Positions 17,239-19,637 of a stretch of 32,175 nt of DNA are shown piece after piece; position 1 is the first letter of the stretch, and every line of letters starts with the position of its first letter. Origin of the DNA: Phycisphaerae bacterium (GTDB lineage: Bacteria; Planctomycetota; Phycisphaerae; UBA1845). The translations under genes and the position numbers were made by a program. The stretch is taken from NCBI GenBank assembly GCA_030429365.1, contig JAUIEW010000026.1, forward strand, positions 1 to 32,175, in the 5' to 3' direction. Under the pieces are notes generated by a model. The model was not told where the DNA came from. It worked only from the letters and a program-made list of their open reading frames with translations, and did no database searches.

Positions 17239-18615
17239 TTATCGAAACTGCTTCGCGACGATTTGGTTGAGATCGAGCGCCAGCTTGCGTTCGTCCTGCA
17301 TGGTCAGTCGGCCTTCATTGACGACGACTTGGCCGTTGACGTACACGCGATCCGCCCGCCCCACATGGCATAGCATCAACGCCGCAAGCGGGTCTTGTGC
17401 AACCGCGCCGGCTAGTGCGATGTCATCGGTGCGATACATCGCCATGTCGGCAGCGAATCCGGGTGCAATTCGCCCCAGTGTCTTGCGTCCCAGTAGCTGA
17501 GCGCCGCCAATCGTCGCGATTCGAAAGGCGTCGGCAGTCGTCATGACCGCGGCTCCCCCACCGACGCGTTGCAGCAGCATCGCCTGACGCGCTTCGGCGA
17601 GCACATGCCCGCCGTCGTTGCTGCTCGAACCGTCCACCCCCAAGCCGACGCGCACGCCTTCACGGAGCAACTGCGGAATCGCCGGCACGCCGCTGCCCAA
17701 GCGCATGTTCGAGCAGGGGCAATGCGCGACCCCTGTCTTCGTTTTCGCCAGCAGTTTGATATCGTCATTCGACAGATGCACGCAGTGGGCAAGGTACACA
17801 TCGTCACCCAGCCAATCGCACTCGGCGAGATAGTCGATCGGTCGTTTGCCGAATCGTTCGAGGCAGTATCGCTCTTCGTCCAAAGTCTCTGCCGCATGCG
17901 TGTGCAACAACACACCGCGCTCGCGGGCGAAGACGGCTGTCTCACGAAGCAACTCGGGACTGATGCTAAATGGCGAGCAGGGCGCAAGGTCGACGCGCAC
18001 CATCGACATCGGATCGGCATCGTGAAACGAATCCACCGCACGGGCGCAGTCGGCTAATATCTCCTGCTCATCCTGCACGCAATCGTCTGGAGGTAACCCG
18101 CCATTCGACTGCCCGACGCTCATGCTACCGCGACAAACATGAATACGCATACCAAGACTGTTTGCGGCTTCCAAAACGCTTTCGACGCGGACGTCGGTGT
18201 TCTGCGGGAAGATGTAAAAGTGATCGCTCGTGGTGGTGCAACCCGAAAGTAATAGCTCGCCAATGCTGACCTGAGCCGCGAGTTTGACGGTGTCATGCGA
18301 AAGGTTGCGCCAGCGCGTGTAGAGTTCGGTCAGCCAGTCGAACAATTCGGCGTTTTGCACGCAGGCCAACCCGCGGGTGAGACTCTGATAAAGGTGGTGG
18401 TGCGTGTTGATGAGCCCGGGAATTACCACGTGGTGCGAACCGTCGAACCGTTCGATGTCGCTACGGCTGGCAAGCTCCCGTTCGACGTCGTTGGTAGGTC
18501 CAACTCGCGTGATCACGTTGGCTTCGAGGATGATGCTGTGATTTTTGAGAACGACGGGATCGTTGTCGACGCAGGTGACGATGGTCGTATCAAATATGTG
18601 CTGGGTCGTGGTCAT
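17239..18615 (-). CDS. 8-oxoguanine deaminase (amidohydrolase superfamily)
   Basis: Zinc-dependent cytoplasmic hydrolase that deaminates 8-oxoguanine to urate, clearing oxidised purine. Metal ligands: NTHHHLYQSLTRG (HxH), HTHAAET, AHCVHLSNDD and GVDGSSSNDGGH (Asp). The segments LLLSGCTTTSDHFYIFP, RGSMSVGQSNGGLPPDD and GVAHCPCSNMRLGSG are, as I recall them, close to characterised 8-oxoguanine deaminases and set it apart from TrzA/AtzB and guanine deaminase. The start is set at the ATG at 18615, giving about 458 residues beginning MTTTQHIF; the ORF-track start at 18678 adds 21 residues that reach into a REP-like repeat. SD is weak (GGCGG). It is monocistronic, convergent with the helicase gene. 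Confidence 0.85.
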   Translation of the reverse strand: MTTTQHIFDTTIVTCVDNDPVVLKNHSIILEANVITRVGPTNDVERELASRSDIERFDGSHHVVIPGLINTHHHLYQSLTRGLACVQNAELFDWLTELYTRWRNLSHDTVKLAAQVSIGELLLSGCTTTSDHFYIFPQNTDVRVESVLEAANSLGMRIHVCRGSMSVGQSNGGLPPDDCVQDEQEILADCARAVDSFHDADPMSMVRVDLAPCSPFSISPELLRETAVFARERGVLLHTHAAETLDEERYCLERFGKRPIDYLAECDWLGDDVYLAHCVHLSNDDIKLLAKTKTGVAHCPCSNMRLGSGVPAIPQLLREGVRVGLGVDGSSSNDGGHVLAEARQAMLLQRVGGGAAVMTTADAFRIATIGGAQLLGRKTLGRIAPGFAADMAMYRTDDIALAGAVAQDPLAALMLCHVGRADRVYVNGQVVVNEGRLTMQDERKLALDLNQIVAKQFR

Positions 18616-18668: not shown

Positions 18669-18853
18669 GGTGGCCCATCTCCTTTTGGAGATGGGGGAGG
18701 CGATGATTCGTGCTTTTCTTGGTTCTTTAGCTTGGCATAGAGTTCCGGATGCAACAACGCCCCTGCCTGCAATCGATCATCGGTTTCACAAGCGTATCGC
18801 GGCGATTTGGAATTGATCATCGACTCCCCCATGTTCGGAGAACATGGGCCACC
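18669..18853. repeat. REP-like inverted doublet (BIME/MITE-like element)
   Basis: Left unit on the plus strand: GGTGG then CCCATCTCC-TTTT-GGAGATGGG then GGAGGCGATGAT. Right unit on the minus strand: GGTGG then CCCATGTTC-TCC-GAACATGGG then GGAGTCGATGAT. The flanks and outer stem are the same, while the inner stem bases differ in a compensating way (CTCC/GGAG against GTTC/GAAC), so pairing is conserved rather than sequence. A GTGG head followed by a stem-loop, in two inverted copies about 145 bases apart, is the organisation of REP sequences mobilised by RAYT (Y1) transposases. No such transposase is in the window. The element touches the upstream end of the deaminase gene. Confidence 0.7.
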
Positions 18854-18885
18854 CATTTGGGCGCGGTGGATGGGCGCGCAAAAAA

Positions 18886-19105
18886 CGGGTCTCGATCACC
18901 AGGGAAGGGTGGCGAACGAGACCCGAACGGTGGTGGAGGGGTGTGGTGGTCAACGACGGAGGCCGTCGAGACCCTCCACCAACCTGATGAAATCTTTGGG
19001 TCAAGCCGTCGGCTTGGGGAGGAGCGCGATCAATTCGGGCACAACACACCCAAGTAGCTCAAGATCATCCCCACGACTGAGCAAACCGATCGACAAATTC
19101 CAAGC
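18886..19105. repeat. Run of five hairpins next to the REP-like doublet
   Basis: In order: CGGGTCTCG/CGAGACCCG (18886-18894 with 18917-18925, inner CACC/GGTG); GGTGGAGGG/CCCTCCACC (18932-18940 with 18972-18980) enclosing CGACGG-AGG-CCGTCG (18954-18968); CAAGCCG-T-CGGCTTG (19002-19016); and a CAAGC/GCTTG hairpin near 19100. Nested stems of this strength in about 220 bases suggest a structured RNA or a further part of the mobile-element cluster. I see no promoter or T-run that fixes a transcribed strand. Confidence 0.5.
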
Positions 19106-19637
19106 CTGAGCTTGCCCCTTGGATTCCATACTCTCTTAAATTCAATTCCCCTGCGCCAAAGCGCGAGGGACCCACGACATGCGCACACCATGCGCGCATG
19201 AAAAGCCCAAACCACCCCTAACGCAGCGCAATGCCACGTTTCGGCACATGGCACAGCACCAAGACAGCACATGCAATCCGCGCAACATCGGCGCGTGAAG
19301 ACACGTACCCTCTCCGCAAGGGCGCACTTTCAATGACAAGTTGTGGGTAGAAGAATCAGAGAGACCAAAATCGAGGGCGGGCGGATGAAGATTCAAATAT
19401 TATGGTATCGGTACGACTTAGGTATTTTTGGATGAATGGCTGACTAGCATGGTTATGGATATTTGCTCGCCCCAATAACTGCCGGTTCTCTATGATCCAT
19501 CCTTACCGAAGGAAACAGTACCACAGATCGCCATTTTGTCAATGTTTTTTCGGGCTTGTGAGCACTTTCACACCTACTGATTTGTTCGCAAATCGAAATC
19601 AATTGGACGCATATGTCGCAATCAGAATGCGTGAATG

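Follow-up and report, generated by a model that had tools for sequence, protein, structure and literature searches.

A probable REP doublet of the BIME-1/REPIN type in a Phycisphaerae genome, and a cognate RAYT transposase in its relatives

Main finding

The stretch of 32,175 nucleotides analyzed here (the window) belongs to contig JAUIEW010000026.1 of a Phycisphaerae bacterium MAG (assembly GCA_030429365.1), and with high confidence its positions 18669-18853 are a REP doublet of the BIME-1/REPIN type, which is a short non-autonomous mobile element. Judged from sequence comparison, the hairpin has very probably been spread by a single-strand-cutting transposase which is intact in a sister species. 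Mobility is supported by the GTGG foot, the covarying stem, the dispersed copies, the heterotypic doublets, the common linkers, the adjacency of RAYT genes and the presence or absence of the element at one locus, while for the chemistry of mobilisation we infer from RAYT/TnpAREP proteins that have been studied.

Structure of the doublet

Two hairpin units of 38-39 nt face inward and measure 185 nt from head to head, the left one on the plus strand (18669-18707, GGTGGCCCATCTCCTTTTGGAGATGGGGGAGGCGATGAT) and the right one on the minus strand (18853-18816, GGTGGCCCATGTTCTCCGAACATGGGGGAGTCGATGAT). Both have the layout GGTGG, CCCAT-NNNN, a loop of 3-4 nt, NNNN-ATGGG, then GGAG-N-CGATGAT, with G as the base separating GGAG from CGATGAT in the left unit and T in the right. 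Units with CCCATG...CATGGG are called G-type and those with CCCAYC...GRTGGG are called C-type. The features are as follows.

18669..18853, no strand, whole probable REP doublet, REPIN/BIME-1-like, with a DNA fold and absent at the same place in genus-mate G409
18669..18707, plus, left REP unit, C-type, covariance model R1 61.9 bits, E 3.8e-13
18669-18673, plus, GGTGG head of the left unit (GTGG foot)
18674-18682 paired with 18687-18695, plus, stem of the left unit, loop 18683-18686
18696-18699 and 18701-18707, plus, GGAG and CGATGAT of the left unit
18708..18815, no strand, linker of 108 nt, weakly and collinearly like the linkers of contigs C20 and C420 of the same MAG and of relatives
18816..18853, minus, right REP unit, G-type, covariance model R1 60.6 bits, E 8.6e-13
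18853-18849, minus, GGTGG head of the right unit
18848-18840 paired with 18836-18828, minus, stem of the right unit, loop 18839-18837
18827-18824 and 18822-18816, minus, GGAG and CGATGAT of the right unit

Each stem has nine perfect pairs, and the inner parts differ as CTCC/GGAG on the left and GTTC/GAAC on the right, exactly as the earlier note had described the two inverted units and their shared motif. The GTGG foot abuts the 5′ side of the 9-bp stem in both units and is kept in alignment A3. As single-stranded DNA the whole doublet is predicted to form one long hairpin from which two arm hairpins branch, as in REPINs; the fold has -37.3 kcal/mol and a z of -4.0, with mononucleotide shuffles as the control. 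No T-run was seen after the window units.

Copies, covariation and spread of the hairpin unit

The exact pattern GGTGGCCCATN{3,25}ATGGGGGAG was matched six times in the 5.23 Mb of the window's own MAG against 0 for the reversed pattern. A relaxed structural scan of the collected loci gave 203 units against 0 in reversed sequences, a figure to be read as a biased density since these loci had mostly been gathered with the unit's own pattern. A covariance model was built from an alignment of 37 distinct units and no more than 150 candidates per genome were scored with it, so that all copy numbers are minima: at least 17 in the own MAG, at least 22-41 in the four genus-mates, from none to at least 117 in the family's other genera, and none found in most of the other families of the order that were sampled. 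REPs usually have more than 100 copies per genome, and the own MAG and its genus-mates fall below this, though their counts are lower bounds. By a crude test, 12 of the 17 own units (17 again being a lower bound) do not overlap any ORF of at least 100 aa; two of the remaining five are the window units, where short ORFs and the choice of an upstream start account for the overlap.

In the alignment of 37 units, 98.5% of the stem cells are paired against at most 65% in slid control structures, 6 of the 9 stem pairs have changes on both sides, and 46 double-change cells were observed where shuffles have a mean of 12.5. The conserved pairing with changed sequence which had been noticed from the two window units alone holds over the family, and a single copy in the genome, which the earlier note had named as evidence against itself, is not what was found.

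A scan of contigs gave at least 112 stretches with the unit pattern, and those forming a true hairpin come nearly all from MAGs of Phycisphaerae or other Planctomycetota. Matches in other phyla mostly lack a hairpin and were set aside as chance, among them those in Meiothermus, Streptomyces, Bifidobacterium and similar genomes; true units outside Planctomycetota were seen in a Gemmatimonadota MAG and in one MAG labelled Alphaproteobacteria. The former (L097, CP070666.1, a chromosome) has one clear G-type unit, a case of transfer or mis-binning, and no cognate RAYT was found for it. The latter (L112/L142/L156; JANQQE, IP29b_bin.190) has RAYT contig coordinates identical with those under G410 of the window's genus and is likely a mislabelled MAG.

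Pairing of units and their linkers

Of 65 close unit pairs at 60-450 nt in the collected loci, 56 are inward-oriented, and 54 of these 56 join one G-type with one C-type unit, where shuffling of the labels gave a mean of 27.8 and a maximum of 44 in 10,000 shuffles. In the own MAG there are four clean doublets (C79, which is the window, C20, C420 and C276), and every one is heterotypic. The count of copies and orientations over the genome which had been proposed as a check of the REP reading therefore came out in its favour, with inverted pairing in the collected loci.

The linkers of OFTM243 are 43-44 nt long and alike among many copies, and linkers of about 119 nt are homologous between C20 and C420 of the own MAG and relatives in the window's genus. 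The window linker has weak collinear similarity to this latter family (z 2.8-5.0 with four members) and is probably a diverged member of it. The enclosed stretch had been given as 130 bases and as a possible separate cargo; it measures 108 nt from tail to tail or 124 nt from GGAG block to GGAG block, and the cargo proposal is unsupported because linkers are homologous between copies (the window's own being only weakly similar) and appear generally to travel with their units. No Rfam match was obtained for the window linker, no separate copy of it was found among the collected sequences, and nothing else marks it as an independent cargo.

The locus in genus-mates

Along the minus strand, trpE is followed by a conserved non-coding stretch with a terminator-like hairpin at its end, and the doublet then lies in the intergenic space between this hairpin and the start of an amidohydrolase gene. 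The mechanically listed amidohydrolase ATG at 18678 falls within a unit, and a start near 18615 suits the relatives better. The same site has one doublet in G407, its linker 19 nt long, and a tandem of two doublets in G410 with linkers of about 20 nt, which makes three of five genus members with a doublet at this place. G409 has no unit and only about 70 nt from terminator to gene, and G408 has a different insert without a doublet. The site of G409 aligns well on both flanks and is not base-exact next to the element, hence the insertion point is approximate. Being present in G407 and G410 and missing in G409 and G408, the doublet is polymorphic within the genus, by gain elsewhere or by loss in G409. 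No target duplication was evident at the site in the genus-mate comparison, as is expected of HUH transposases. The earlier note would have been contradicted by a sequence conserved at one place in related species with neither a RAYT gene nor repeats elsewhere; instead two genus-mates share the site and a third lacks the element, and both repeats and RAYT genes occur elsewhere.

It is also conceivable, and in our estimation unlikely, that mobility is past and the doublet is retained for a local role, in which it would attenuate transcription, stabilise mRNA or insulate the amidohydrolase gene from the terminator upstream. Its position directly upstream of the amidohydrolase start, its strong hairpins and its sharing by three genus members would suit such a role, whereas its lack in G409 and G408, same-site linkers which range from 19 to 108 nt, a single terminator-like match in the region that is no better than shuffles, and the dispersal of the same hairpin unit over many unrelated sites argue for the mobile REP doublet.

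The neighbouring stretch 18876-19130 (minus strand) is an observation in its own right. It is unannotated and non-coding, has a very stable predicted RNA fold of -115 kcal/mol (z -5.4, reached by 0 of 200 shuffles), ends with a terminator-like hairpin and a T-run, and is 84-91% identical in three genus-mates and partial in a fourth. A search of 55 other genomes of the family and order did not recover it, and Rfam gave no match even with the threshold relaxed to E 1; we regard it as a candidate new non-coding RNA.

The cognate RAYT transposase

Matches of Pfam Y1_Tnp in the first ten genomes tested gave three loci with units near. L172 (OFTM182) has a 191-aa gene with one unit on each side, inverted, and its orthologues (59-79% identity) were found in eight further genomes, with units adjoining most of them. 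RAYT loci with adjoining units are L172/L208, L156/L212, L209, L210 and L211, and inverted copies of the window-type unit flank the gene in L172/L208, L156/L212, L211 and others, not in the own MAG. A Y1/TnpA_REP gene between copies of the unit, for which a search had been suggested, is therefore present in related genomes, and the proposal of a REP/BIME element moved by a RAYT is supported by the copies, the inverted pairing and this adjacency.

In further relatives the RAYT is flanked on either side by hairpins that differ from the window type yet match each other (L214, L215, L216, L217, L221, L233, L207 and L183), for example, among the more distant members, GGTGCCCCGCCCTTCAGGGTGGGGGAC at L217 and GGTGGCCCCCATAAC...GTTATGGGGG at L207, with matched stems on both sides. 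The cognate-type RAYTs of L214 and L215 (G406, G009), with re-specified hairpins CCCATCCATCGCG... and CCCAGCTCG... on both sides, are sets useful for recognition studies. At L164/L165/L227 (OFTM182, Dive100_bin1.21) a different RAYT subfamily was noticed, with hairpins of a second family, GGTGGCATGCCCAAGCC...GGCGCGGGCATG, at its borders.

All 11 members of the RAYT set match NF047646 REP_Tyr_transpos (the first member with 81.3 bits against a cut-off of 80) and Pfam Y1_Tnp, and the HxH and Y-x-H-x-N-P residues are invariant across the set. PF01797 alone under-detects the gene (about 23 bits), and the full gene was recovered by protein queries. The best match by sequence profile is PDB 4er8, a TnpAREP (RAYT) bound to its REP hairpin, which is also the best fold match (E 5.8e-8, TMq 0.62) of a predicted model of moderate confidence (pLDDT 73, pTM 0.75).

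The ends of IS200/IS605 elements are hairpins on one strand and not inverted pairs. A MITE derived from such an insertion sequence, with ends moved by TnpA_IS200 and not by a RAYT, would share the HUH-Y1 superfamily and the hairpin ends, and NF033573 transpos_IS200 is weakly matched by 6 of the 11 set members; but the ends of the window's family are inverted, unlike the asymmetric, non-inverted ends of IS200/IS605, and the gene adjoining the units scores above the equivalog cut-off for RAYTs, with 4er8 as its nearest PDB match, which leaves this origin very improbable. A structured RNA family with paralogues that happen to be intergenic would suit the strong stem covariation and is otherwise hardly credible: no Rfam match was obtained, and an RNA gene family would not be expected to form inverted doublets with common linkers or to be associated with a transposase gene.

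Within the genus the cognate RAYT is intact in G407 (UBA1845), and in G410 it is interrupted by an internal stop. G409 has a broken copy together with a divergent 43% relative, and in G408 the gene is represented by a divergent 46% relative. No intact cognate RAYT was found in the window or in the own MAG (95% complete, 455 contigs), where two truncated remnants occur; the description of the doublet as a non-autonomous copy fits for this reason, and because truncated remnants of the RAYT are all that was found, the element in the own MAG is probably a relic or dormant. Two own-MAG loci were rejected as the cognate gene: L177/L276, the second remnant, matches residues 5-69 alone and has no adjoining unit, and L007 (G000:C123, about 650-2800), a Y1_Tnp match, is a short Y1 transposase-like ORF, and the inverted repeat whose copies surround and flank it is another one, which contains AGTAACTGTCCTGACTTATT.

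Comparison with known systems and proposed mechanism

REP doublets or BIME-1 of E. coli and Stenotrophomonas and REPINs of P. fluorescens SBW25 have been described (PMC2817692, PMC3116915). The present family is like them in the GTAG/GTGG foot before the hairpin, the inverted doublets with common linkers, the mostly intergenic position, the RAYT gene flanked by the same hairpins and the matched stem changes. It is unlike them in its sequence, in doublets that are almost always heterotypic, in its spread over a planctomycete (Phycisphaerae-like) family and in its modest copy number (at least 17-117). The G/C heterotypy resembles the two unlike units, Y and Z2, which bound the E. coli RAYT (PMC2817692). 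A GTAG-tagged REP superfamily has been reported in Planctomycetes/PVC with a GTGG variant in O. terrae (PMC3733652); the terminal tetranucleotide, stems of 6-9 bp and the PVC superphylum are shared with it, while GTGG, the CCCAT stem base and the conserved CGATGAT tail set the present family apart. Like the TnpAREP/RAYT subclasses of PMC6006769, the cognate RAYT is a single-domain HUH-Y1 protein with a YxHxNP-like motif, and its gene has canonical GT[AG]G hairpins next to it. Where most of those subclasses have a WQ motif, the cognate set reads WN, WT, WK or other. The set does not belong to class 3, which is marked by a CnGA foot and a Y motif with a final Q.

The defining features of REPs, of REPIN/BIME-1 and of RAYT association that concern sequence, copies, pairing, position and gene linkage were all found, with RAYT association seen in relatives but not at home in the own MAG, where the gene is represented by remnants. 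The kind of element is already known, and no prior description of this hairpin family was found in a partial coverage of the literature on REP, REPIN and RAYT in planctomycetes/Phycisphaerae. Its interesting traits are the near-strict heterotypic pairing and the family-wide spread with hairpins changing in step between genomes.

TnpAREP cleaves and rejoins REPs according to work cited in PMC6006769, and the proposed movement of the doublet follows the REPIN model (PMC3116915). By this analogy a RAYT of HUH-Tyr type would bind each hairpin as single-stranded DNA, the GTGG foot would guide its cleavage, and the doublet would be excised and re-inserted as one unit without target duplication. More tentatively, and with somewhat less than even confidence, we suggest that the RAYT acts on two distinguishable ends, left and right, so that a doublet would be competent only as G-type plus C-type, and that the hairpins are re-specified in step with the RAYT between genomes.

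Significance

It is in Proteobacteria that REPs are best known, and there the sequence tends to be particular to each species. Here one hairpin family and its RAYT can be traced over many genera with compensatory stem changes. The matched changes at the RAYT flanks along with the near-strict G/C heterotypy open RAYT-hairpin recognition to comparative and in vitro study, and make it testable what a difference between the two ends, as with the Y and Z units of E. coli, signifies. If the two-ended RAYT with hairpins re-specified in step is true, these genomes would form a natural series from which hairpin recognition by a RAYT could be read.
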